54,058 bases of DNA from NCBI GenBank assembly GCA_003141415.1, contig PLLX01000194.1, positions 355-54,412 of the forward strand. The letters are read 5' to 3'. The notes under the pieces are model-generated. The model was not told the DNA's origin. It saw only the letters and a program-made list of their open reading frames with translations, and ran no database searches. Both the position numbers and the translations under genes were made by a program. The stretch comes from Bacteroidales bacterium. Lineage in GTDB: Bacteria; Bacteroidota; Bacteroidia; Bacteroidales; VadinHA17. Below are positions 12,716-29,669 of the stretch, one piece after another; positions within the stretch are counted from its first letter, which is position 1, and each line of letters opens with the position of its first letter.

Positions 12716-14638
12716 TCAAATATTTGCCAGCTCTTTTATTGAATTGGCATGACTGCCGCTGTTGATTTTTATAGGTTTTTCAATTAAAGCTTCAGCCACA
12801 ATCTCAGAAATATCTGCCACTCTTGTCTCAGTAACAGCAGCGAAAGTCTTTTTACAAAGAGGGCAAGCGGTTGCCAGAATATCAGGGTTATTTTTGGTCA
12901 GTTCAGTAGCAGCATCCAGAGCTATTTTCTTTCTCTTTTGAGAGCTTATTTTCATGTTGGCAAGACTTCCCCCGCAACAAAGAGAATTTTCATCTTCAAA
13001 GTCGCTTTTTTCAAGACGGGAAACATGATTCAGAACCTCCGTTGGTTCATCGTAGACACCTGATCCTCTCCCAAGATCGCATGGAGAATGATAGACAACT
13101 TTCTTACGTAAGAAATTCATCTTCACTGATCCTTCATCTATGAGCTTCTTGATGAATTGTGTATGATGAAGCACTTCAACATCGAGATAGTAGCTCTCCT
13201 TAAATACTTTATAACAGATAGGACACGAAGTTACAAGTGTATGGGCTCCTGATTTCCAAATCATCTGCGAATTATAATTAATCAGTTCCCTTGCTTCCTT
13301 ATCCTGTCCTGCAAGCATCAACGGACGGCCACAACAGACACCACCCTGCTCATCAATAAAATTGTATTTCACTCCTGAGGCTTCAAGAATTTTTATCATT
13401 GAGTTCTTAATAGCCGGTGTAAGGTGGGTCATACAACCGGCAAAATACAATATGTCAGCTTTTTGCGGATCGCTTTCCTGAAGAAAACTGTAATTTGAGG
13501 AACTAATCACTTTTTCAGGAATATTAATCTGCCTGCTTCTGAAATAACCATTGTATATATTCCTGATATCATTTTCAGCTTCACCTCCCCTTCTCTGGAT
13601 CATCCTGATGGGAGAAAGTTCTATACCCACAGGACATTTCTGATCGCATCTGCCACACATCAGACAGTTATCAACAATTTCAGAAACGTCATCATTATTA
13701 CGGATAGCTTTCATAAGGTACGCCGATTGAATATTGGTGATCCCTGCCGAAAAATTAAGCTGACATGCATCAATGCATATTCCACACGATGAACAGGAGT
13801 ATGTTTGAACCTCTGAATACGTACCTGCTTTATCGCCGGTTTTTATTCCCGAATTTCTCATAAAGATCAGGAACAGTTCAGTTGGAATGTGCATATATCG
13901 GGAAATCGGAAGAAGAATGAAAAAAGTTCCTAAAGAGATGGAATAGAGCCACCAGAAAGGATATGCTATCTGCTGGGCCGGGAGAAATGATGCAAGCCAG
14001 GCTCCCAGTGATCCTGTAAGAAAACTGCCGGTACCGTGAGCGCCACATGTGAAACTTTCAGCCAGCAGACGACTGGGGAAGATCAGCCATAGTGAGGTAA
14101 GGGCAATTCTGTCGGTGATCTTCAGACGGGTAGTCTTCTTCATCCCGACAACTCTTGAATAGAATCTTTTTATTACAGCCAGCAATAATCCTGACAGAAT
14201 AAATGCAAGTATCAGATCCATTAAAAATCCATAAGTTGCCTCAAACCCTATCCTGCCATGCTCTGGATTGAAGAATCTGAAAAAGATTGCTTTATATGGA
14301 GCGTTAAGGTGTTTCGTTCCAAAGATATCCGCTTCAATAGTGCCGAAAAAAATAAGTAAAAACCAGCCGAAAGCCAGACTCATATGCATATATCCAAGAC
14401 GCAGATTTGTTTTAAGTATCTTCCTGTGTATCAGACTCTCCATGAATATCTCCTTTAAGCTAAGGGCAAAAGGGATTCCGAAAAATCCACGTTGAAGCCT
14501 CAGTTTGTCTGGTCTCGACAAGTCATGAAACCAGATAACACTTCTCGCTACAACATAGATGATTATGAAGTACAATCCAATATTAAAGGGTATAATGAAA
14601 GGATCAAATTTCATATTCATCTGATTTTTGAAAGGCAT
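12716..14638 (-). CDS. Membrane HdrE/HdrD-type fusion: cytochrome-like N-terminus plus two CCG domains
   Basis: The 640-residue protein begins with about six membrane helices (residues 15-270) of the NarI/DsrM type, with His residues in helices that could hold b-haems. Two [4Fe-4S] motifs follow ('CSSCGICIDAC', 'CLMCGRCDQKCPVG'), then two canonical CCG domains: C…'GGVCCGRP'…'CPIC' and C…'NSLCCGGS'…'CPLC', which in HdrD/DsrK bind the unusual catalytic [4Fe-4S] cluster. This is the membrane outlet of the complex, likely exchanging electrons with the quinone pool (inference from HdrDE/DsrMK). It is the last gene of the operon and overlaps the upstream HdrC by 35 bp; starts at codon 7 or 9 would shorten the overlap. 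Confidence 0.88.
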   Translation of the reverse strand: MPFKNQMNMKFDPFIIPFNIGLYFIIIYVVARSVIWFHDLSRPDKLRLQRGFFGIPFALSLKEIFMESLIHRKILKTNLRLGYMHMSLAFGWFLLIFFGTIEADIFGTKHLNAPYKAIFFRFFNPEHGRIGFEATYGFLMDLILAFILSGLLLAVIKRFYSRVVGMKKTTRLKITDRIALTSLWLIFPSRLLAESFTCGAHGTGSFLTGSLGAWLASFLPAQQIAYPFWWLYSISLGTFFILLPISRYMHIPTELFLIFMRNSGIKTGDKAGTYSEVQTYSCSSCGICIDACQLNFSAGITNIQSAYLMKAIRNNDDVSEIVDNCLMCGRCDQKCPVGIELSPIRMIQRRGGEAENDIRNIYNGYFRSRQINIPEKVISSSNYSFLQESDPQKADILYFAGCMTHLTPAIKNSMIKILEASGVKYNFIDEQGGVCCGRPLMLAGQDKEARELINYNSQMIWKSGAHTLVTSCPICYKVFKESYYLDVEVLHHTQFIKKLIDEGSVKMNFLRKKVVYHSPCDLGRGSGVYDEPTEVLNHVSRLEKSDFEDENSLCCGGSLANMKISSQKRKKIALDAATELTKNNPDILATACPLCKKTFAAVTETRVADISEIVAEALIEKPIKINSGSHANSIKELANI

Positions 14639-14948
14639 TTTTTGCCAGAACTACAATATTTCTGGTATTCACTCCGCGGGGACAAACCAGGGTACACTTA
14701 CCACACAACATGCATTTGTTTAAATTCTGACGCACCTGATCATTTTCACCTCGTTTAATAAGTATATGAAGCTCCCTGAGGCTGAATCCTGTAAAATTAG
14801 CGGTTGTACAGGTCGCCGAACACCCACCGCATTCAATGCAAAGCCTGAAGCTGGGTTCTTTTTCAAAAATGTATTCGGCCAATCTCCTGTTGTTCGAATC
14901 ATAGTCGATCTGACGTCCTGCTGATATAGTAAAACCGAATTTATCCAT
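14604..14948 (-). CDS. HdrC-like 4Fe-4S dicluster protein (second copy, short)
   Basis: The 114-residue protein has two [4Fe-4S] motifs, 'CIECGGCSATC' and 'CMLCGKCTLVCPRG', separated by 'GFSLRELHILIKRGENDQV', the usual HdrC spacing. It is an electron-wire subunit that would link the flavin protein HdrA to a CCG subunit. It sits between HdrA (2 bp upstream) and the membrane HdrE/D fusion (35-bp overlap), so it probably serves the membrane CCG subunit while the first, longer HdrC serves HdrB (inference). Confidence 0.9.
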   Translation of the reverse strand: MDKFGFTISAGRQIDYDSNNRRLAEYIFEKEPSFRLCIECGGCSATCTTANFTGFSLRELHILIKRGENDQVRQNLNKCMLCGKCTLVCPRGVNTRNIVVLAKNAFQKSDEYEI

Positions 14949-14949
14949 A

Positions 14950-15978
14950 TTATCTTATACCATCATTAAGGTAATCAATTACTTCCACAACAGCGGCACG
15001 TGCATGTGATATTGTTTCGGGAATATTCATAGGCGCTGTACACGACCCGGCATAGAATACCCCATCAATATTGCTCCTGTTGCTACCAATAAGATTATCA
15101 GTTGCAGCGAAGAATCTGTTTTCGCCGGTTTTAAGACCAACAATACCTGCAATTTTTTCCCCGTCTTCTGACATTTCCATTCCTGCCATAAGAACCAGCA
15201 TATCGAGTTTCATTTTAAGTGGTCTGCCAGCCAGAGTATCTTCAACTTTTATTAGAAGCTTGTTTTCAATTGTCTCGCTCGCCTCAGATACTTTACCGCG
15301 AATAAAGTTCACTCCCCATTTTTCCTGGGCCTCACGGTAAAGCTCTTCATAAAAAGCTCCACCCATCCTCATATCCATATAGAAGCAGAATACTTTCGAA
15401 TCCGGAAGAAATTCCCTTATCTCAATTGCCTGCTTTACAGCAGTCACACAACACAATTTGGAGCAATAAAAATTACCTACTTTTTCATCTCGCGAGCCGA
15501 CACAATGTATGATTCCTATTGTTTCCGGAACAGTTTGATTGGTTAAAGCAATTTTTCCTTTCCGGAACATTTTCTCCAGATCAACAGAAGTAATAACATT
15601 ATCGTAAATGCCATAACCATACTCCTCTTTCCTCGAGCTTTTAAAGAGATCAAACCCCGTTGCAATAATAATTGCATCGGCAGTCAGCTCTTTTCCTCCA
15701 TTCGTAGTAATCAAAAAATGACTTGTGTTCCTTTTAAACACTTCTATCGTAGTATTAGTCAGTAGATTAATACCATGATTATGAGTCATCCCGTCGAGGT
15801 ACTCCTTTACCTCAGAACTATCCCTTCTATCAGGAAAGAGCCTGTACCAATTATTCAGATGTCCTCCTGTATTGATTTCCTTTTCTATCACGCTGACCTC
15901 AATTCCAGCTTTTGACAACTGACCTGCAACTTCAAGTCCTGCCACTCCTCCACCTATTACAACAACATGCTTACTCAT
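14950..15978 (-). CDS. HdrA-like FAD-dependent oxidoreductase
   Basis: The 342-residue flavoprotein starts with the dinucleotide-binding fold 'HVVVIGGGVAGLEVAGQLSKAG', then 'GGHLNNWYRLFPDRR', and carries the HdrA/QmoA cluster region 'CVGSRDEK..NFYCSKLCCVTAVKQAIEI'. The C-terminal 'VFYAGSCTAPMNIPETISHARAAV' closes the FAD site. It lacks the ferredoxin and thioredoxin-reductase-like additions of methanogen HdrA, so it is closer in length to QmoA-type or short HdrA proteins. Such a subunit could receive electrons from a cytoplasmic donor; whether it bifurcates cannot be read from sequence. It is six bases downstream of hdrB. Confidence 0.88.
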   Translation of the reverse strand: MSKHVVVIGGGVAGLEVAGQLSKAGIEVSVIEKEINTGGHLNNWYRLFPDRRDSSEVKEYLDGMTHNHGINLLTNTTIEVFKRNTSHFLITTNGGKELTADAIIIATGFDLFKSSRKEEYGYGIYDNVITSVDLEKMFRKGKIALTNQTVPETIGIIHCVGSRDEKVGNFYCSKLCCVTAVKQAIEIREFLPDSKVFCFYMDMRMGGAFYEELYREAQEKWGVNFIRGKVSEASETIENKLLIKVEDTLAGRPLKMKLDMLVLMAGMEMSEDGEKIAGIVGLKTGENRFFAATDNLIGSNRSNIDGVFYAGSCTAPMNIPETISHARAAVVEVIDYLNDGIR

Positions 15979-15984
15979 TTACAA

Positions 15985-17046
15985 TCAGACATTTATTAAG
16001 TTGTGCTTTTCTGAAAATGAAGGTATTATTTCAAGGTTATATTTATCTTCCGGGGAATAGTCAACTCCTATCTTGTCCAGAACAGGTTCACAATCCGTCT
16101 GATGCATTTGAAGACCTAATTCCCATGGATCATAACCAAGAACAAGACCCGCAACCTCTTCATATGTAAAAACAGGAATTCCTTCTCCATTCTGTCCATA
16201 TCTCTTGCCTTCCATTTCATTTATAACATACTGCCATCTGTCAAGAAACATTGGGCAACCAGGACAATTAGTAATAATCATGTCGGGTTTAAATGGCTCC
16301 ATTGATTCAAATTTTTCTTTTGAGCAGGCAATTGAGAAACCTCTGTTTGCCTGTACCAGATATTGCCTGAAACCAAATCCGCAACAGTGCCTCCTTTCAG
16401 GATAATCAATTATCTTGCCTCCCCATTCTTCAATCATACCTGCAAGAACATACGGATATTCTGCTCCCCCAACGCCTTTAGAAGGGAACATCTTAGCGTA
16501 ATGGCAACCAATATGATCGACAACTTTCAGTGGTTCACCGGTTTTTTTATTTATAAGCTTATATTTTGCTTTTGCAGCAATCTCTTTTCTGAATTTATAG
16601 ATAACGTCACTTGCATGAGCAAGGTTTTTGGGTTTTTTAAATTCCCTTCCGGTGGCTTTTTTCAGTTGTAGCCTGATTTTTTTCTCGACTTCGGGAAAGT
16701 GATGCCATGTATCCAGAATTTCGGTGTATAATCCGAACGAGGTGATGCACGATGGTACGAGATTTTCATAACCAGCTTCAGTCATAATCGCAAACTGACG
16801 TGCAACAACTGTCATCGTTGTTTCAACCGGTACTATATCACTGTGATAACCAATTCCTGTGCACGATGTATGACAAGGATGTTCATATACTTCCTTTTTA
16901 AGCTCTTCACGCATGATTTTAAGAAAGGCTGTTTCTGATCCTGGAAAGAAATTTTGTCTTACGCAGCTTCTTACATAATAATATTTATCGTCAGCAATTT
17001 CCTTCTGATAATCATTCCAAATAGCCTTTTTCCCTTCTAGTATCAT
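15985..17046 (-). CDS. HdrB-like CCG-domain protein with an altered first CCG domain
   Basis: The 353-residue protein has a canonical second CCG motif: 'DHIGCHYAKMFP', 'ERRHCCGFGFRQ' and 'TNCPGCPMFLDRW'. In the first half the equivalent positions read 'YVRSCVRQNFFPG', 'HPCHTSCTGIGYH' and 'VPSCITSFGLY', so the usual CC pair and CxxC are replaced by CHTSC and a lone Cys. In HdrB these domains hold the non-cubane cluster pair that acts on disulfides; here the first site may bind a different cluster or be structural. It is co-transcribed with hdrC (13-bp gap) and hdrA (6-bp gap). The natural substrate is not known. Confidence 0.85.
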   Translation of the reverse strand: MILEGKKAIWNDYQKEIADDKYYYVRSCVRQNFFPGSETAFLKIMREELKKEVYEHPCHTSCTGIGYHSDIVPVETTMTVVARQFAIMTEAGYENLVPSCITSFGLYTEILDTWHHFPEVEKKIRLQLKKATGREFKKPKNLAHASDVIYKFRKEIAAKAKYKLINKKTGEPLKVVDHIGCHYAKMFPSKGVGGAEYPYVLAGMIEEWGGKIIDYPERRHCCGFGFRQYLVQANRGFSIACSKEKFESMEPFKPDMIITNCPGCPMFLDRWQYVINEMEGKRYGQNGEGIPVFTYEEVAGLVLGYDPWELGLQMHQTDCEPVLDKIGVDYSPEDKYNLEIIPSFSEKHNLINV

Positions 17047-17058
17047 CTGTTGAAAATA

Positions 17059-17766
17059 TTATCTTGTGTGGCAACCATTATTAGTTTTATAAATATGTTG
17101 GAAGTATTCATTTTCAATACCTTCATCCAGTTGCATATTTAATTCTTTAGCTTTTTTCTTTGAAAATTCTTCAATATTTTCAAATCTTTTCATTCCGCCG
17201 GTAACCTTAAAAATCTCCCGGATCTCATCCATCGCATCTTCAGGTATTCTCCTAAGGATGCCCGGACCATCACCCTTATAATTAGCTCCCATTTTTTTAA
17301 ATAACGCGGTCCAGTTATCCTGAATCCAATCCCAGACTGGTCCCTGTTCGGGGTGCATTGATGTACCTACTCCTTCAAGATAAAGACAATAACCATATGT
17401 AAGCAACCAATGGCCGACTGTCCTTTTCAACGCAAGCTGTTGTCTTCCTTTTTCAGATTCTGTAAAATAACCGAGATCCTGTGAAAGCGATCGCAATGCC
17501 ATTATTATCAATCCAGGGGCATTTCCACGAGGACATCGTGTTTTACAGGACATACATTCGCCACAATACCAGATTGTTTCCGACTTTAAAAGTTCAGTTA
17601 TCTTATCATCATTCTTTGTCTGGACTGAATCAACTATTTTTCTGGGATCGTAATTATAAAACTCTGCTGCAGGACAGATAGCAGTACAGACACCGCAATT
17701 CATACAGGCATTCAGTCCTTCTTCGAACCTGACATCTTCTAATAATAAATCGTACAGTTTCCCCAT
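17059..17766 (-). CDS. HdrC-like 4Fe-4S protein with a C-terminal extension
   Basis: The 235-residue protein is the first gene of the operon. It has two [4Fe-4S] motifs, 'CMNCGVCTAICP' (about residues 21-32) and 'CGECMSCKTRCPRG', in normal HdrC spacing, followed by an extra 130 residues with no recognised domain ('LGYFTESEKGRQQLALKRTVGHWLL' and an acidic, helical tail). The tail is longer than in minimal HdrC subunits and may dock HdrB, whose gene follows 12 bp later. A candidate promoter with TATCTTTG lies 37-44 nt upstream. Confidence 0.87.
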   Translation of the reverse strand: MGKLYDLLLEDVRFEEGLNACMNCGVCTAICPAAEFYNYDPRKIVDSVQTKNDDKITELLKSETIWYCGECMSCKTRCPRGNAPGLIIMALRSLSQDLGYFTESEKGRQQLALKRTVGHWLLTYGYCLYLEGVGTSMHPEQGPVWDWIQDNWTALFKKMGANYKGDGPGILRRIPEDAMDEIREIFKVTGGMKRFENIEEFSKKKAKELNMQLDEGIENEYFQHIYKTNNGCHTR

Positions 17767-21811: not shown

Positions 21812-22435
21812 CTAGCAACCCCCGGCGGCCTTCTTCTTTTTCGGAGCAGATTGCAATGCTGGTTTTGCTGATTCAGTACTCTGGTTTTGATTTGATTGTA
21901 CTGCCATACCACCACCAAGGGCTTTCCCGGCACTTAAGCGAAAATCATATTTTGCAAACTCCTCATCAGGACTTGTAGATGCAGGTTTCTGGGGATTAAG
22001 AATTACATCAAACCAATAATTCAATCCGCCTTCCAATACTAAATTATTTTTATAACCAAGTTGCCTTGTCACCATCCATGCCTCATTGGCTGTGATAGTA
22101 CCATTTGAATAGAAGATGTTCATTTTAACATCCTGATTAAGTATATCCGTAAACTTATCTGAAAGCAAGTCTGCAACAGGTATATTTATTGCCCCCGGAA
22201 GGCTGAATTTTTCAAAATCATCCTTATTTCTTACATCAATAAGCTGGAAGGAAGGATCCTTTTTAATTATCATATCGGCTACAGTTTCTGGTGTAATATA
22301 CTGGGTTCGTGTATTAGCTTCACCAAGCAACTGATCTGCTGTAAGTTTGTAAGGTTTTGTTTTATTCTGCGGTACTGCGGCAATAATAAGACCCATCGGA
22401 ATTATAAAAAGTGCCAAAAGTCTGAGTGGTTTCAT
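21812..22435 (-). CDS. Exported rhodanese-fold protein without loop Cys, ending in a single C-terminal Cys
   Basis: The 207-residue protein has an N-terminal hydrophobic export or anchor segment (residues 3-21) and a rhodanese domain: 'FQLIDVRNKDDFEKFSLPGAINIPVADL' and 'GYKNNLVLEGGLNYW'. The active-site loop, normally C-x5-R/T, reads 'NIFYSNGTITANEAW': the catalytic Cys is Ser110. The only cysteine in the protein is the last residue, Cys207, in a flexible tail 'APKKKKAAGGC'. A classical sulfurtransferase reaction is therefore unlikely; a carrier that loads sulfane sulfur on the swinging C-terminal thiol is an attractive idea (inference). Neighbours are the YeeE/YedE pair and the Psr-like enzyme on the same strand. 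A heptanucleotide array lies 26 bp before the ATG. Confidence 0.9.
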   Translation of the reverse strand: MKPLRLLALFIIPMGLIIAAVPQNKTKPYKLTADQLLGEANTRTQYITPETVADMIIKKDPSFQLIDVRNKDDFEKFSLPGAINIPVADLLSDKFTDILNQDVKMNIFYSNGTITANEAWMVTRQLGYKNNLVLEGGLNYWFDVILNPQKPASTSPDEEFAKYDFRLSAGKALGGGMAVQSNQNQSTESAKPALQSAPKKKKAAGGC

Positions 22436-22460: not shown

Positions 22461-22530
22461 CTTGTTACTTGTTACTTGTTACTTGTTACTTGTTACTTGT
22501 TACTTGTTACTTGTTGCTTGTTGCTTGTTG
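22461..22530. repeat. Heptanucleotide tandem array (CTTGTTA)7(CTTGTTG)3
   Basis: Ten uninterrupted 7-nt units: seven CTTGTTA then three CTTGTTG. On the minus strand the unit is TAACAAG. The array occupies the region immediately upstream (26-95 nt) of the rhodanese-fold gene, where its promoter should be. Copy-number change would alter promoter spacing by 7 nt steps. Confidence 0.95.
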
Positions 22531-22617: not shown

Positions 22618-23208
22618 TTAATATTCTTCTCTGGGGAATTTCTTCTCCGCCCATTCTGCCACCCGGAACATTGAAAGGGCAACTATTATAAGCAGAAAAG
22701 CAAATACTCCGTCGGAGAGTCCAATTGTTTGGCTAATCTTTGGAAAACCTAAAAACTTGGCAAGATACATTCCATCCCAGATTTTATAACCCAGTGCGAA
22801 AATCAGGATTCCTATAAATAATCCACCAATGAAGACAAATGCATCAATTTTACCAATTGAAGCACCACAGAAGCTTGTACCGGGACAGTATCCCCCGATA
22901 ATAAATCCCGCACCCATGATCATTCCGCCAACAATAGCCGATGTAAGATAGGTTGGGTTAACATAGATAAGGTTAAGATCTATCCAACCGAAAAGACTGA
23001 AGAAAAGCAAACCAAGCATAGCTGTAATAGCTGCAGTAAAAAACACTTTCAGAACTACAGTATCATAACCGTAAAAAACCCCTGCAAGTTTTCTGCTTGA
23101 TGAAAATCCACTCTGTTCAAGTACAAATCCAAAACCTATTCCAATTATAAAAGCCAGGAAAAGGTTAGTATTCGCTGAAATTAACTCGTTTACTGATAAT
23201 GGTCCCAT
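22618..23208 (-). CDS. YeeE/YedE half-transporter (CPGT half)
   Basis: The 196-residue membrane protein has about five helices and the motif 'GGYCPGTSFCGASIG' (Cys108, Cys114), the hallmark of one half of YeeE/YedE transporters such as TsuA, which carry thiosulfate through a cysteine relay. The full-length transporter is split here: this gene encodes the CPGT half and the upstream gene the 'GRGCTSG' half. It is expected to import a reduced sulfur species (or, in some YedE groups, selenium). The octanucleotide array at 23213-23260 ends 5 bp before the ATG. Length fits half-size members. Confidence 0.9.
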   Translation of the reverse strand: MGPLSVNELISANTNLFLAFIIGIGFGFVLEQSGFSSSRKLAGVFYGYDTVVLKVFFTAAITAMLGLLFFSLFGWIDLNLIYVNPTYLTSAIVGGMIMGAGFIIGGYCPGTSFCGASIGKIDAFVFIGGLFIGILIFALGYKIWDGMYLAKFLGFPKISQTIGLSDGVFAFLLIIVALSMFRVAEWAEKKFPREEY

Positions 23209-23375: not shown

Positions 23376-23897
23376 CTATATCCAGTTCTTCCTGAAAAAA
23401 TAAGCAAGAGCATAGGCAGTTCCAAAAATTGCCATCATTGTAATGAACCCTCCAAGAGACAATACTGCCATTCCGCTCAGGGCTGATCCGCTGGTACATC
23501 CTCTTCCAAATTCGGCTCCAAAACCAAAAAACACTCCTCCTGTCAAAGCAAGAAAAAGTCGCTTTTTTGAGGTTATTTTTGGCGAATGTTCTACTTTCAA
23601 TTTCAGACGTCCTGCAAATGCACCTGAAAGAAATCCGCCAACAAGTACACCCGTCATTTCAAAAACGAGCCATGTTTTCATCGGGTTCCCAGGATGATCC
23701 GCTCTGAACTCTTTTACGAATCCCAATTTTTCTGAGGAGGATGGTGCAACTGCACTAATGGAAGTAACAACAACACTTTTCATTGCACCACTGGCACCAA
23801 GTCCACGTCCGGAAATAAAATTCGCCGCCAGAAGAACAATTCCTAACAGCGCCCCGCCTACGTAAGGGTTCAGGTACTTTGTTTTTTTTTGTTCCAT
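23376..23897 (-). CDS. YeeE/YedE half-transporter (GCTSG half)
   Basis: The 173-residue membrane protein has 4-5 helices and the motif 'GAEFGRGCTSGSALSGMAVLSLGG' with Cys134, matching the second half of YeeE/YedE transporters. A periplasmic-size loop (residues 51-72) separates the first two helices. With the adjacent CPGT half it should form a complete two-chain transporter for a sulfur compound. It follows the Psr-like membrane subunit gene by 107 bp, a gap filled with an inverted repeat of TACCGCA-like units. A hairpin AAATTTGC/GCAAATTT at 23340-23362 follows the stop. Confidence 0.9.
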   Translation of the reverse strand: MEQKKTKYLNPYVGGALLGIVLLAANFISGRGLGASGAMKSVVVTSISAVAPSSSEKLGFVKEFRADHPGNPMKTWLVFEMTGVLVGGFLSGAFAGRLKLKVEHSPKITSKKRLFLALTGGVFFGFGAEFGRGCTSGSALSGMAVLSLGGFITMMAIFGTAYALAYFFRKNWI

Positions 23898-24004: not shown

Positions 24005-24946
24005 TTAATACAGCCACCTGCTTATCTGTCCGGCATATGCAATAATAAAACGCAGCATCAGGCTTCCAAAAATCACAAGTACTGCAGGAACAATTGCCGG
24101 AATATGGAACTTTCCCAACTCCATAAATTCAAGCAGAGCAGGAATAAGCATTCCCATTGTCACAACAAATATCCAGAATGACATAGTATATGGTCCTCCA
24201 AGAAACAGTTTTGCAGCTTCGATCTGAACCTGGGTGCTCGCCAGAAAACCCATGAACATATGAATAATAAAAAACAGTTCAATCCCTATTAACACGAGAT
24301 CTATTCTTGCAAACTGCTTTCGTTCTGCTTTATCTTTTGATAAAATTAATGTTGCTGCTGCACCGGCTGAAAGTCCCGATGACAGAAACAATGGTCCCAG
24401 AATTGATGTATTCCAGAGAGGGCGGGCATTAAAGGCTGACAATAAGATCCCCGTATAGATTCCGAGGATAATCCCATAAATAAGCATGATCCATGCAAGG
24501 GCTTTCTTGTATTTGTTAAAGAAAGTCTCAATGTCACATATCCATTTGAATTTCCAATCCCAACGCGGGAAAATATCTCTTATATGAAGGGCGCACCAGA
24601 TAAATGAAACAGGGGTGATAACCATCAGTGTCCAGGCTCCCCATGACATTGGTGACTGCAATCGTATGTTTGTATATAGCTGCCAGAAAAACAGTTTATG
24701 TCTTAGGTCAATGAATAGTGTTAATAATCCAATAACCAGCAGAAAAGGAGCAAGAAAAGGTGTAATACGGACGGCTGTCCTGTAGTCATTTTCCCTGCCT
24801 CTTATAAAATAAAGTGCAGCAATACAAAGAATTCCGGCTGCCATTCCCCCGAGAAAGAGATAAAGCGGAATCTGCCAGTGCCAGATATTAAGTTGCGGAT
24901 CAATGAGTTGATTCATCCTGCCACTTACTAATATTTCTTCTTCCAT
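24005..24946 (-). CDS. NrfD/PsrC-family membrane quinone-oxidoreductase subunit
   Basis: The 313-residue protein has eight to nine membrane helices and begins with the typical 'LNIWHWQIPLYLFLGGMAAG' of NrfD/PsrC subunits, which exchange electrons with menaquinol and anchor the periplasmic molybdoenzyme. 'ESPMSWGAW'-like 'LQSPMSWGAWTLMV' and 'STSILGPLFLSSGLSAGAA'-like segments are also family features. It is the third gene of a psrA-psrB-psrC-type operon (20-bp gap from the Fe-S subunit). Name-level assignment to polysulfide, thiosulfate or tetrathionate reductase cannot be made from this subunit. Confidence 0.9.
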   Translation of the reverse strand: MEEEILVSGRMNQLIDPQLNIWHWQIPLYLFLGGMAAGILCIAALYFIRGRENDYRTAVRITPFLAPFLLVIGLLTLFIDLRHKLFFWQLYTNIRLQSPMSWGAWTLMVITPVSFIWCALHIRDIFPRWDWKFKWICDIETFFNKYKKALAWIMLIYGIILGIYTGILLSAFNARPLWNTSILGPLFLSSGLSAGAAATLILSKDKAERKQFARIDLVLIGIELFFIIHMFMGFLASTQVQIEAAKLFLGGPYTMSFWIFVVTMGMLIPALLEFMELGKFHIPAIVPAVLVIFGSLMLRFIIAYAGQISRWLY

Positions 24947-24966: not shown

Positions 24967-25500
24967 TTAAATCAAAAAATAAAGTTGTGGTTTAGTTCCT
25001 GCTTCAGGAATAAGTGTTTTTGATTTACGCTTTTTCAAAACCACAGAGACATCGCTGTTCAGGTCATCCAAATCTCCAAAATAGATGCATTTGGTAGGAC
25101 AAACAGCTGCGCAGGCAGGAGCAAGACCGATTTTTATCCTGTGAATGCAAAACGTGCATTTATCTACATAACCTTCCGGGTGAGGGTACCGGGCATCGTA
25201 CGGACATGAAGCAATGCATGCCCCACAACCTATACATTTGTTATGTTCAACAAGCACAATTCCTCCATCAGCAAAATGACTGGCCCCGGTAGGGCAGCAA
25301 CGAACACAAGGTGCATTTATACAATGATTGCATCTCTCCGATCTGATCTCAATCTCAAGCTGCGGATAAGTTCCATTCATCGTTTCAACGACCCATTCAC
25401 GGCAAAAACCATGCGGCACATTATTCTCAGTCTGGCAGGCCACGACACAATCGCTGCAACCTACACATTTTCTTGTATCAACTGCCATTGCATACCTCAT
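24967..25500 (-). CDS. PsrB/PhsB-type four-cluster ferredoxin subunit
   Basis: The 177-residue protein has four [4Fe-4S] motifs typical of CISM-family Fe-S subunits: 'CVGCSDCVVACQ', 'CNHCINAPCVRCCP', 'CIGCGACIASCPYDARY' and 'CTFCIHRIKIGLAPACAAVCP'. It passes electrons between the membrane NrfD-type subunit and the molybdenum subunit. There is no signal peptide; it would ride out with the Tat-exported partner. It overlaps the psrA-type stop by 4 bp (ATGA), showing translational coupling. Confidence 0.93.
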   Translation of the reverse strand: MRYAMAVDTRKCVGCSDCVVACQTENNVPHGFCREWVVETMNGTYPQLEIEIRSERCNHCINAPCVRCCPTGASHFADGGIVLVEHNKCIGCGACIASCPYDARYPHPEGYVDKCTFCIHRIKIGLAPACAAVCPTKCIYFGDLDDLNSDVSVVLKKRKSKTLIPEAGTKPQLYFLI

Positions 25501-27734
25501 GATGCAACCTCCTTCTCTGACTTTTCAGTAACAAATGTTACAAAATTGGATCTCATTCCGGTTCCTCCCATCAACGGATCGGTTAGGACTTTTGTTATCA
25601 ACTGGGTATCACTCGCACCTTTTCCGAAACATCTCTTCATCTGCTTCTGACCATGACCAAAACCATGTACCATGTACACTGAATCCCATCGGATACGTTC
25701 GGTTACTCGGACTTTGATCTTAAAGTTGGAAATCACACCATCCTGGTTTTTAAGCCATATATACTGTCCCGTTACCAGACCCCACGCTTTCGATACCTTG
25801 GGATTTACCCAGGCCGTGTTCTCATGCATAAGGTCAGTAAGATTCGGATTATTGGAAGTTCTGCCAAATGTATGTTGTGGTGTCCGTCCATAGATAAGGC
25901 GGTAATAACCTTCAGAAGGCTCTTCATGAACAGTATATTTAGGAAGGGGATCAAAACCTGCCTGCTCAATATATTTAGAGTATAATTCTATTTTGCCTGA
26001 ATCAGTTGAAAATGCAACATTTTCATTTTCAGCGAAATACAAATCGTCTGCCTCTCTTTCTTTTGTTTTTACCCCGATACGTTGCATCTCTTCAAGCGAA
26101 GAACCGGATTGTTTAAGTTGCCAGTCCAGCAATTCCTCCTGCTTTTCAAATGGAAAATAGTTTTCGAGACCAAGTTTAACAGCTAATCCTCTGGCAATAT
26201 TGTAACCTGATCTGGTATTGCTTTTTGGCTCTGCTGCCGGCATCCTCAATGCTATGGCAGGTTTACGGTGAGGGCTGATTCTAAGCATATCATATCGTTC
26301 AAGATATGTACATTCGGGTAAAACAACATCAGCCCATCCTGTGATCTCCATCGGCATTGTGTCGACTGCAACTAACAGATCAAGATTCTGAATTGCCTTC
26401 AGAGTATTAGCCTGATCAGGTATTGATGATATCAGATTTGTTGCATTAACAATCCAGCCTTTAATTAAATATGCCGGTTTGTTTTCAGGGATTGAAGCAT
26501 CTATAAGTGCATTTGAGACCGGAGAACTTGCAATGGGATATTTTCCGGGGAAAGCATCTGTCCAGGCTTTTTTGGGTTCAGGGTACTTTGGTGTTTTTGC
26601 TGAAGGAACTACATAACTTGCAGGTCTGTAAAACCCTCCCCGTCTGCCCCATGAACCCAGGAGTGCATTTAAAATAGCAATCGCCCGAACCCTCTGGGTA
26701 TCATCGCCATACCATGTCACATGTCGCCCTGGGTGGATCAGAACAGCAGGACTTGCATTCGCCATCTCTTTTGCGGTTTTTCGTATCTTATCAGGCGATA
26801 TTGTTGTTATCCCGTAAGCCCATTCAGGAGTAAAATCCAAGACATGTTCTTTCAGTTTATCAAACCCGTTGCAATATTTTTCGACATAATTTTTATCATA
26901 ATAATCGTTATAGATTATTTCATGTATCCAGGCCAGGAGTAATGCAATATCGGTAGAAGGTTTAATAGGGAGCCAATATTTGGATTTCCCGGCAGCAGTT
27001 GAAAATCTTGGGTCCACTGTAATTATTGTCACACCTTTATCAATTGCATCCGACATTTCCTGAATCTGCCCGTTATGCATGTTTTCTCCAATATGTGATC
27101 CTATCAGTACAAGACATTTTGTATCTCGAATATCAGTTGTTTCAGGTGAGTAGACTTCCTCTCCGAATGTTGCAAGAAAGGCTTCATCTCTCGGTCCGCG
27201 ACATTGTGCATATGATGGTTCAGCTATATTGGAAGAACCAAACGCTTTCAATAAATTTGTAAAATAGGTACTGCCTGAACCATGTGTGAATAAAGCCATA
27301 CTTTCTGCGCCATGTTTTGAAGATATGTCCTTCATTTTGGCTGCAACATAATTCAGAGCCTCATCCCATGAAACCTCACGAAAGACCTGTTTGCCGCGTT
27401 CTTCAACCCTGATCAATGGTGTCTTCAGCCTGTCTTCATCATAATACATTCCAACACCACCGGTACCACGAGGGCAGAAGCGACCGTTAGAATGCTGATC
27501 TTCATCATTGCCTATGATTTTCCAGATTTTACCCTCAGATGTTTTGTAAACCCATCCGGCACATTTCCAGAAACATACCTCACAGTAAGTAGGTGTTCTC
27601 TTAAGATCCACTTTGAGTTTTTTTGCTTCATCGGGGGAGAAAAGTAATTTAGTAGCGCCAAATGTTCCTTTGGTAATTGCCAGAACACCGATTCCCATTA
27701 CCGAAATTCTTATAAAATCTCTCCTGCTAGTCAT
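25497..27734 (-). CDS. Molybdopterin oxidoreductase, polysulfide/thiosulfate reductase-like catalytic subunit
   Basis: The 745-residue protein begins with a twin-arginine signal ('SRRDFIRIS'), then an N-terminal [4Fe-4S] motif C-x2-C-x3-C…C (Cys51, 54, 58, 87). The molybdenum ligand position is Cys178 in 'SYAQCRGPRDEAF', as in PsrA/PhsA and nitrate reductases of the NapA type. The C-terminal MGD-binding 'YRLIYGRTPQHTFGRTSNN' is seen. Cofactor class, Tat export and the NrfD partner point to a respiratory enzyme of the Psr/Phs/Ttr group facing the periplasm. With a rhodanese and YedE genes downstream, a sulfur substrate is favoured, but arsenate or other oxyanions are not excluded. Confidence 0.9.
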   Translation of the reverse strand: MTSRRDFIRISVMGIGVLAITKGTFGATKLLFSPDEAKKLKVDLKRTPTYCEVCFWKCAGWVYKTSEGKIWKIIGNDEDQHSNGRFCPRGTGGVGMYYDEDRLKTPLIRVEERGKQVFREVSWDEALNYVAAKMKDISSKHGAESMALFTHGSGSTYFTNLLKAFGSSNIAEPSYAQCRGPRDEAFLATFGEEVYSPETTDIRDTKCLVLIGSHIGENMHNGQIQEMSDAIDKGVTIITVDPRFSTAAGKSKYWLPIKPSTDIALLLAWIHEIIYNDYYDKNYVEKYCNGFDKLKEHVLDFTPEWAYGITTISPDKIRKTAKEMANASPAVLIHPGRHVTWYGDDTQRVRAIAILNALLGSWGRRGGFYRPASYVVPSAKTPKYPEPKKAWTDAFPGKYPIASSPVSNALIDASIPENKPAYLIKGWIVNATNLISSIPDQANTLKAIQNLDLLVAVDTMPMEITGWADVVLPECTYLERYDMLRISPHRKPAIALRMPAAEPKSNTRSGYNIARGLAVKLGLENYFPFEKQEELLDWQLKQSGSSLEEMQRIGVKTKEREADDLYFAENENVAFSTDSGKIELYSKYIEQAGFDPLPKYTVHEEPSEGYYRLIYGRTPQHTFGRTSNNPNLTDLMHENTAWVNPKVSKAWGLVTGQYIWLKNQDGVISNFKIKVRVTERIRWDSVYMVHGFGHGQKQMKRCFGKGASDTQLITKVLTDPLMGGTGMRSNFVTFVTEKSEKEVAS

Positions 27735-28163: not shown

Positions 28164-29669
28164 ATGACAGATCTTGAAATATATTTTGACCAGTATAGAA
28201 AAAATATCATCGGTATTGACGCAGAAATTAAAACACCTTACGGATCGAGGAAACTGATTTATGCAGACTGGATAGCCAGCGGAAGACTTTACGGACCTAT
28301 AGAAAAAAGGATTACTGAAGACATTGGTCCTTTGGTAGGGAACACACATTCAGAATCAACATCGACAGGTAAGGCGATGACCGATGCCTATCATCTCGCA
28401 CAGAAAATAGTGAAACGTCATGTGAATGCCAATGATAATGACATTCTGATATTTACAGGTACAGGAATGACGTCCGCAATTGCCAAGCTCCAAAGACTTC
28501 TTGGATTAAAGGTTCCGGAACAGGCTATTAATTACTGTTCTTATTCACATGGAAATTATGCCAATTGTAAGGACATTCCAAATGAAAATCGTCCGGTTGT
28601 TTTCTTAACTCATACCGAGCATCACTCCAACCATACTTCATGGTTTGAAACTCTCGCTGATGTAGTTGTTTTAGAACCATCTTCCGATCTGACAGTAAAT
28701 CCTGACGCTTTGCGTAAGGAGATAGTAAAATACAAAGATCGTCCTTTACTGATCGGTTCTTTTTCAGCATGCTCTAATGTAACAGGATATTTCCCCCCGT
28801 TTTATGAGCTGGCAAAGATAATGCATGAGCATAATGGATACTGTTTTGTGGATTTTGCAGCATCAGCTCCATATGTTGACATTGATATGCACCCTGATGA
28901 TAAGCTCAATCAGCTTGACGCAATATTTTTTTCCCCTCACAAGTTTCTCGGCGGACCCGGCAGCGCCGGAGTTCTGATTTTCAACAAAGAACTGTACAAA
29001 AATAATATTCCTGACAATCCGGGCGGAGGAACTGTAAAATGGACAAACAGGTGGGGTGGTTATAGCTATATAACAGATATTGAGGTAAAAGAAGATGGAG
29101 GAACCCCCGGATTCCTTCAGGGAATTAAAGCTGCTCTTGCAGTGACTCTTAAGGAAAACATGGATACAAGAAAGATGTATATGAGAGAAAGTGAGCTTAC
29201 CGAATTAACTTTCAGGGAATTATTGAAAATAAAAAATCTACACATTCTTGCTCCGGATATAAGGAACAGATTAGGTGTTTTTTCTTTTTACGTTGATAAA
29301 ATACATCATAACCTTTTTACCAGCCTTCTTAACGACCATTTTGGAATTCAGGTAAGAGGTGGATGTTCCTGTGCCGGCACTTATGGCCATTTCCTTTTAA
29401 ATGTTGATATTAAAATGTCAAAAGAGATCACAGATAAAATTGATGCGGGAGACTTATCGATGAAGCCCGGATGGATAAGATTATCTCTTCATCCGACGAT
29501 GACAAATGATGAGTTACACTTTATTCTTGATGCTATCAGGCAGACTATAGAGATGGCGCAAATATGGGTGAAGGATTATCGGTATGACTACCATACGAAT
29601 GAATTCCATCAAGATAAATTTCCTGAAAAAAATAGTGCAGATATTTCCAAATGGTTTTTATTAACCTGA
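28164..29669 (+). CDS. Class-V aminotransferase-fold PLP enzyme (cysteine desulfurase/selenocysteine lyase-like)
   Basis: The 501-residue protein has the class-V fold: 'YADWIASGRLYGPIE' near residue 35, 'TGTGMTSAIAKLQ', 'FVDFAASAPYVDIDM' and the PLP lysine K260 in 'FFSPHKFLGGPGSAG'. A loop with cysteines, 'VRGGCSCAGTYGHFLL', lies where group-II desulfurases carry the persulfide-forming Cys. It is longer than SufS (about 410 residues) and has a C-terminal extension ending 'DYHTNEFHQDKF'. It has a strong private promoter and is divergent from the Psr-like operon, so a role in releasing or trapping sulfur there is plausible. It could instead be an unrelated class-V lyase. Confidence 0.85.
   Translation: MTDLEIYFDQYRKNIIGIDAEIKTPYGSRKLIYADWIASGRLYGPIEKRITEDIGPLVGNTHSESTSTGKAMTDAYHLAQKIVKRHVNANDNDILIFTGTGMTSAIAKLQRLLGLKVPEQAINYCSYSHGNYANCKDIPNENRPVVFLTHTEHHSNHTSWFETLADVVVLEPSSDLTVNPDALRKEIVKYKDRPLLIGSFSACSNVTGYFPPFYELAKIMHEHNGYCFVDFAASAPYVDIDMHPDDKLNQLDAIFFSPHKFLGGPGSAGVLIFNKELYKNNIPDNPGGGTVKWTNRWGGYSYITDIEVKEDGGTPGFLQGIKAALAVTLKENMDTRKMYMRESELTELTFRELLKIKNLHILAPDIRNRLGVFSFYVDKIHHNLFTSLLNDHFGIQVRGGCSCAGTYGHFLLNVDIKMSKEITDKIDAGDLSMKPGWIRLSLHPTMTNDELHFILDAIRQTIEMAQIWVKDYRYDYHTNEFHQDKFPEKNSADISKWFLLT

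Follow-up and report, generated by a model that had tools for sequence, protein, structure and literature searches.

Sulfur-handling cysteines near the C-terminus, often beside glycine, are found in DsrC-type carriers. The same arrangement is described for LbpA (PMC6067878). SoxY (of SoxYZ) is a periplasmic carrier with a C-terminal Gly-Gly-Cys arm, and the Cys of its GGCGG motif is established as sulfur binding (PMC6067878). Handover from the SoxY Cys to the YeeE-type channel SoxT has been proposed and is called conceivable (PMC11582611). In another study, a divergent SoxY was located next to octaheme tetrathionate reductase (PMC11237559). The literature leaves open, explicitly for SoxT, how YeeE/YedE channels receive zero-valent sulfur from outside (PMC11582611). 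Direct relay from Cys to Cys within YeeE channels is disputed, because the cysteines are about 7 Å apart (PMC11582611). In split channels the halves are named PmpB (N-terminal) and PmpA (C-terminal) (PMC11582611). Uptake of zero-valent sulfur has been demonstrated for such PmpAB-type proteins (YedE1E2; PMC10812762). No Cys-tailed rhodanese is described with PmpA/PmpB of Serratia or Cupriavidus (PMC11582611, PMC10812762). Dedicated Cys-bearing partners of YeeE channels, namely YeeD/TsuB and TusA, are cytoplasmic and TusA-like (PMC11582611).

Rhodaneses are known beside related systems. Wolinella Sud, a rhodanese-type protein with one Cys, supplies polysulfide reductase and needs this Cys for sulfur transfer (PMC2754497 and references therein). 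Sulfurtransferase genes lie near polysulfide reductase in Caldithrix abyssi (PMC5317091). In Cloacimonadota, a periplasmic rhodanese is clustered with a sulfur transporter (PMC8542988). In the open-licence literature, we found no earlier account of a rhodanese with a Cys tail, nor of one fused to PmpB.

Here, we describe such a protein, encoded in 54,058 nucleotides of DNA from a Bacteroidales bacterium. This whole stretch is referred to as the window. The relevant features, with the evidence for each, are as follows.

21812–22435, minus strand: Cys-tailed pseudo-rhodanese gene, 207 amino acids (open reading frame and translation, PF00581, AlphaFold2 rhodanese fold)
21815–21817, minus strand: codon of Cys207, the sole Cys of the protein (invariant in 65/65 close homologs; Cys is the last or second-last residue in 156/157 family members)
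21815–21910, minus strand: flexible basic tail, residues 176–207, ending KKKKAAGGC (mostly pLDDT below 50)
22013–22294, minus strand: rhodanese domain, residues 48–141 (Pfam; pLDDT 83–91)
22106–22108, minus strand: codon of Ser110, at the catalytic loop Cys position (translation; invariance in close homologs)
22373–22429, minus strand: probable N-terminal transmembrane anchor, residues 3–21 (hydropathy 2.27; helix 6 of PmpB-rhodanese fusions)
22618–23208, minus strand: PmpB-type N-terminal half of YeeE/YedE channel (PF04143; Cys in GGYCPGTS)
23376–23897, minus strand: PmpA-type C-terminal half of YeeE/YedE channel (PF04143 positions 173–309; Cys in GRGCTSG)
24005–24946, minus strand: PsrC/NrfD membrane subunit (PF03916, E 1.1e-48)
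24967–25500, minus strand: PsrB iron-sulfur subunit (PF13247 and related)
25497–27734, minus strand: PsrA/PhsA-type molybdopterin subunit with twin-arginine signal SRRDF (PF00384; Thermus PsrA 2VPW)

Translation of complement(21812..22435) gives 207 codons with an ATG start and a TAG stop; the plus strand has stops throughout. A preliminary description of this DNA had the coordinates right and left out the strand. PF00581 is the sole Pfam family matched (residues 48–141; E 8.8e-14; 52.2 bits against a cut-off of 22.2), the SoxY profile PF13501 giving no match. No NCBIfam model, as a curated family for the protein, scored at or above its cut-off. AlphaFold2 predicts a confident rhodanese fold, and Foldseek matches it to solved rhodaneses. 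Hence, the rhodanese assignment, also made in the preliminary description, is solid. The active-site loop reads FYSNGTITANEAW, with Ser110 at the usual Cys position. Minus-strand translation also bears out the earlier statements that Ser110 replaces the loop Cys and that the lone Cys is residue 207. In AlphaFold2 models, the tail of the free protein is mostly disordered and the tail end of a fused form has low confidence.

Close homologs were collected in one scan of 85,462 species genomes. This identified 64 loci, mostly in Bacteroidales and Marinimicrobia. Ser110, Lys200, Lys201, Gly205, Gly206 and Cys207 are invariant in all 65 full-length homologs, and the region from the last helix to the tail varies freely. 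The last 14 residues carry a median net charge of +5. Conservation of the tail had been put forward previously as a check, together with co-occurrence of loop Cys loss, a terminal Cys and a YedE/Psr neighbourhood. The tail is conserved at the five positions above from Lys200 onwards, and the three traits co-occur in all close homologs.

The wider family was sampled using a profile search of 297 Bacteroidota genomes, 45 of which contain it. With a fused member as the query, a second search, of 245 genomes from another class, was positive in 99. We count 157 members, from Bacteroidota and Marinimicrobia; six further matches (other rhodaneses or a fragment) were left out and a Gemmatimonadota case was read separately. 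Cys is the last or second-last residue in 156 of the 157. In the lone exception, L204, a single in-frame stop interrupts the tail, and KKKKKEGC can still be read beyond it in the same frame. The commonest endings are GGC (117 members) and EGC (26), with a few GGCG, GGCS, GGCA, GLCS, DGC and EVC. Loci added later have the tails VRMGC, ANEGC and RFQC. The Cys-tailed protein of Gemmatirosa kalamazoonensis, one extra case from a plasmid search, ends RLRRRGC. The terminal GGC of the first account was thus too narrow: the Cys is universal, while EGC, MGC, GGCG, GGCS and others can stand in for GGC. At one locus (L073, 879–2172), PmpAB is followed by two tandem Cys-tailed rhodaneses, each ending PEGGC.

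Chance was ruled out as the origin of the terminal Cys by two comparisons. Among 328 other open reading frames in the same DNA, each 300 codons or longer, Cys is the final residue of 1 and occurs in the last two positions of 2. In the source genome, where 30 of 33 GGC-stop patterns were read, an open reading frame of at least 60 amino acids ending in GGC occurs only in two copies of the rhodanese gene. A general Cys-tail tag was not seen in this genome, and other rhodaneses (L129, L130, L135) are without a tail Cys.

We then compared loop and tail. Rhodanese domains of 115 representatives have a median identity of 28% (minimum 11%). At the loop position, 57 have Ser, 30 Ala, 23 Gly, 3 Asp and 2 Cys. 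A maximum-likelihood tree of the representatives, built without the loop columns, requires at least 23 changes of the loop residue; the switch between Cys and non-Cys occurs once. Loop Cys is found only in L090 and L096, which form one small clade. As the loop drifts, the tail Cys is retained across at least three phyla. Hence, selection holds the tail Cys and not the loop. Since loop Cys persists in the L090/L096 clade, its loss is not strictly required. The loop Cys expected of a catalytic rhodanese is absent from the close homologs, all 65 of which have Ser110. However, Ala, Gly and Asp in the wider family, and the tree, rule out a fixed Ser as essential. Loss of the loop Cys, as claimed initially, is therefore upheld in 113 of 115 representatives; the emphasis on Ser is not, with Ala, Gly and Asp common and Cys kept in one clade. 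This contrast between loop and tail is the clearest indication of an apparent move of the working thiol to the tail tip.

Both channel halves, in the window and in fused forms, match PF04143 and resemble PmpA/PmpB (YedE1/YedE2) in keeping both indispensable cysteines. The Cys of GGYCPGTS is present in 64 of 64 PmpB sequences and that of GRGCTSG in 63 of 63 PmpA sequences. These PmpA and PmpB residues are the equivalents of TsuA Cys293 and Cys91, respectively (numbering from PMC11582611). As a reverse test, PmpB was searched for in the same 297 Bacteroidota genomes, with E 1e-30 or better defining a strong match. Such matches occur in 50 of the genomes, about one in six sampled. In 50 of these 50, the Cys-tailed protein is directly downstream of PmpB or fused to it. 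This test is independent of the rhodanese, whereas a larger set of 165 distinct PmpB open reading frames was partly collected via the rhodanese itself; in that set, 158 have the Cys-tailed protein adjoining or fused directly. Six more qualify once frameshifts (L065, L226), a stop (L204) or overlapping frames (L078, L091, L221) are considered. A beta-proteobacterial PmpB (L222) is the only one of the 165 without a rhodanese neighbour. Distant PmpB paralogs (L237–L239; about 33% identity) have no Cys-tailed partner, and beside one is an ordinary rhodanese with the loop ICSSGNRSS. Judged by this linkage, the split channel PmpA-PmpB is the obligate partner of the Cys-tailed protein. PsrABC was ruled out in that role, given the many loci without it and the fusions to PmpB.

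PmpB and the rhodanese form one chain in 59 loci. Briefly, five PmpB helices are followed by a sixth helix, the rhodanese domain and the Cys tail. The Cys is retained in 58 of 58 fused sequences. A Foldseek search with the fusion model gave matches to the rhodanese part only. The sixth helix is the counterpart of the free protein's N-terminal hydrophobic segment, so this segment most likely stays uncleaved and anchors the protein in the membrane. In this region, Ala19, Val21 and Pro22 are invariant in the 65 full-length homologs. The persistence of this segment as a membrane-spanning helix in fusions speaks against an exported form with a cleaved signal peptide. Basic residues ahead of the anchor, and the positive-inside rule, would place the N-terminus inside and the rhodanese domain in the periplasm. 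Each family feature tested, namely the transmembrane anchor, rhodanese domain, terminal Cys and PmpB adjacency or fusion, was present.

Upstream of the channel genes, homologs of PsrA, PsrB and PsrC are all present and, by homology, the set is PsrABC/PhsABC. The closest solved structure to PsrA is Thermus polysulfide reductase (2VPW; E 1.1e-193). The order PsrA-PsrB-PsrC-PmpA-PmpB-rhodanese is constant in close-homolog loci with a long enough contig; extra DNA separates PsrB and PsrC in L067. All six genes are present in Ancylomarina sp. DW003 (L042). PsrABC is also the context of free forms in Bacteroidales, Marinimicrobia and others. Of 56 loci with fused forms, 50 have cytochrome b561 and none has PsrC. 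Every longer fused stretch read (L211–L214, L219, L220, L240) encodes an octaheme cytochrome. The two that were compared match the octaheme tetrathionate reductase of Shewanella (1SP3; E 1e-123 and 1e-130); nitrite and hydroxylamine can also serve as substrates of octaheme tetrathionate reductase (PMC4484225). Thirdly, some loci (L241, L242, L244 and Gemmatirosa kalamazoonensis) encode a thiosulfate sulfurtransferase of two domains whose loop, YCHIGQQ, is intact. The source genome also holds a divergent paralog (L068) with a GGCG tail; the 10 kb read at this locus include PmpAB and no PsrABC. From gene context, PsrABC is one of at least three interchangeable sulfur enzymes. Of the Psr and YedE setting proposed at first, only the YedE-type channel, as PmpAB, is constant; Psr is one of several options.

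Other aspects of these loci were recorded. A divergent fused clade (L206–L209, L219) ends RSGGLCS and adjoins octaheme tetrathionate reductase. It is without the usual separate cytochrome b561, and the multihaem protein of L219 carries a cytochrome b-like domain. By eye, a MerR-like regulator lies near the upstream end of L211, L213 and L216, which include octaheme-type and Psr-type operons. In L216, molybdopterin biosynthesis-like genes come after the Psr-type operon. Besides PmpAB and the GGCG-tailed paralog, L068 (2580–5452) contains a divergently transcribed gene for a predicted lipoprotein that has two rhodanese domains. A 152-aa protein of this locus has no Pfam match; its length and loop-like LLFSSDPG suggest a further degenerate rhodanese. 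Contig C15 of the source genome carries a second PsrABC-PmpAB-rhodanese operon (L069, 6465–12078) in which the rhodanese is 91% identical and PmpB is split into two frames. A MobA-like gene, a methyltransferase and a full-length YeeE/YedE protein follow. This operon could be a co-binned strain variant. In the window, ten tandem CTTGTTA heptamers (22461–22529; 98% match) separate the PmpB gene from the start of the rhodanese gene, possibly as a variable-number repeat acting on rhodanese expression. About 4 kb downstream of the operon, on the same strand, a heterodisulfide-reductase-like gene set (12716–17766) encodes CCG and 4Fe-4S domains and an FAD oxidoreductase; it might supply a sulfur or electron partner in the cytoplasm. 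The window operon and the Gemmatirosa operon both have neighbouring class-V aminotransferase (cysteine-desulfurase-like) genes, at 28164–29669 of the window and at 1826–3190 of L221, respectively.

The Cys-tailed protein shares traits with each described system. The GGC tip of the window protein, and GGCG in paralog L068, resemble the tip of the SoxY arm in sequence. However, SoxY has its own fold (PF13501) and SoxZ as a partner, whereas the Cys-tailed protein has a rhodanese fold, a basic tail and a membrane tether or channel fusion. Searches of the source genome with PF13501 and PF11783 were empty, and control genomes were equally silent. Like Sud and other single-domain rhodaneses, it is a rhodanese-type protein with a single Cys, encoded beside PsrABC. 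Unlike in Sud, where the Cys is in the active-site loop, the Cys is at the chain terminus and is accompanied by a transmembrane anchor and constant PmpAB. As with YeeD/TsuB and TusA, the YeeE channel has a dedicated Cys-bearing partner, here predicted to be periplasmic and rhodanese-like instead of cytoplasmic and TusA-like. LbpA and DsrC-type carriers differ in having unrelated folds, a cytoplasmic location and other partners. The 'new kind of sulfur carrier' of the preliminary description is new in fold and partner; a swinging Cys arm was already known in SoxY.

Our preferred interpretation, which we consider probable, is that the Cys-tailed protein is a periplasmic accessory subunit of PmpA-PmpB, with a tail Cys that ferries sulfane sulfur from enzyme to channel. 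It builds on the observed sequence, fold, conservation, obligate linkage or fusion to PmpB, and interchange of enzymes. One transmembrane helix would tether the rhodanese-fold domain, which would act as a docking scaffold with a dispensable loop Cys. The lysine-rich flexible tail, of about 30 residues, would present the single Cys at its tip. This Cys would acquire sulfane sulfur, forming a persulfide, at an enzyme of the periplasm: PsrABC here and, elsewhere, octaheme tetrathionate reductase or thiosulfate sulfurtransferase. The arm would then swing to the outer mouth of PmpAB, where the conserved cysteines of the channel would accept the sulfur for import. The persulfide on Cys207, and contact with the channel cysteines, are what we infer from this arrangement. 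Two points count against it: the dispute over direct relay between channel cysteines, and the loop Cys retained in the L090/L096 clade. A broader proposal, which we hold more tentatively, is of a channel-dedicated carrier class spanning phyla. Degenerate rhodaneses, attached to a split YeeE channel by a tether or by fusion, may use a swinging terminal Cys to move zero-valent sulfur across the membrane. Interchangeable periplasmic enzymes would serve them, including the octaheme reductase, for which arm-bound sulfur is perhaps the true substrate.

Sulfur could also travel in the opposite direction. PmpAB would then export zero-valent sulfur onto the Cys arm, and a periplasmic reductase would make sulfide, as an electron sink or for sulfur disposal. 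In two of the three contexts, the enzyme is of reductase type and has quinone-pool membrane subunits, and an arm-bound persulfide would be a natural reductase substrate. However, homologous split channels are demonstrated importers (PMC10812762), and the thiosulfate sulfurtransferase fits better as a supplier of sulfane sulfur. Hence, we regard import as more likely and export as unlikely. Adjacency to PsrABC in the window and close homologs recalls Wolinella Sud, which feeds polysulfide reductase (PMC2754497). The Cys tail could similarly gather polysulfide for PsrABC, with the channel a mere neighbour. We think this improbable: PmpAB is constant, the observed fusions all involve PmpB and none a Psr subunit, PsrABC is missing from many loci, and the L068 paralog has PmpAB alone of the two in the DNA read.

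A conserved terminal thiol could also serve in a disulfide, in metal binding or as a covalent anchor. In such a structural or regulatory role, it might tether the protein to PmpA or PmpB by a disulfide, link a dimer or act as a redox switch for channel gating, with no sulfur carried. Obligate co-occurrence and fusion with the channel suit a subunit tether equally well, and a lone Cys could dimerise the protein. Yet fused forms, already covalently joined to PmpB, still have the Cys (58/58), and a Cys placed at the end of a long disordered tail is typical of a carrier and ill suited to tethering. The Cys tail is also common to loci with varied sulfur enzymes. This role thus seems a little less probable even than service to PsrABC. 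Replacement of the loop Cys could, finally, mark a decayed rhodanese with a chance Cys, or one still catalytic via Ser. Decay is refuted by retention of the tail Cys across at least three phyla despite loop drift, and loop Ala and Gly are incapable of catalysis; we give these two ideas almost no credence.

If the Cys-tailed protein is an accessory subunit for import, the family provides a candidate outer-side carrier that is physically part of its channel and occurs in about one sixth of sampled Bacteroidota genomes. The family links three enzymes previously without a common partner. It gives a testable physiological context to the PsrABC operons of Bacteroidales and Marinimicrobia, and to octaheme tetrathionate reductase. 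Apparently, the working thiol of an enzyme fold has here left the active-site loop and now sits at the end of a tail.
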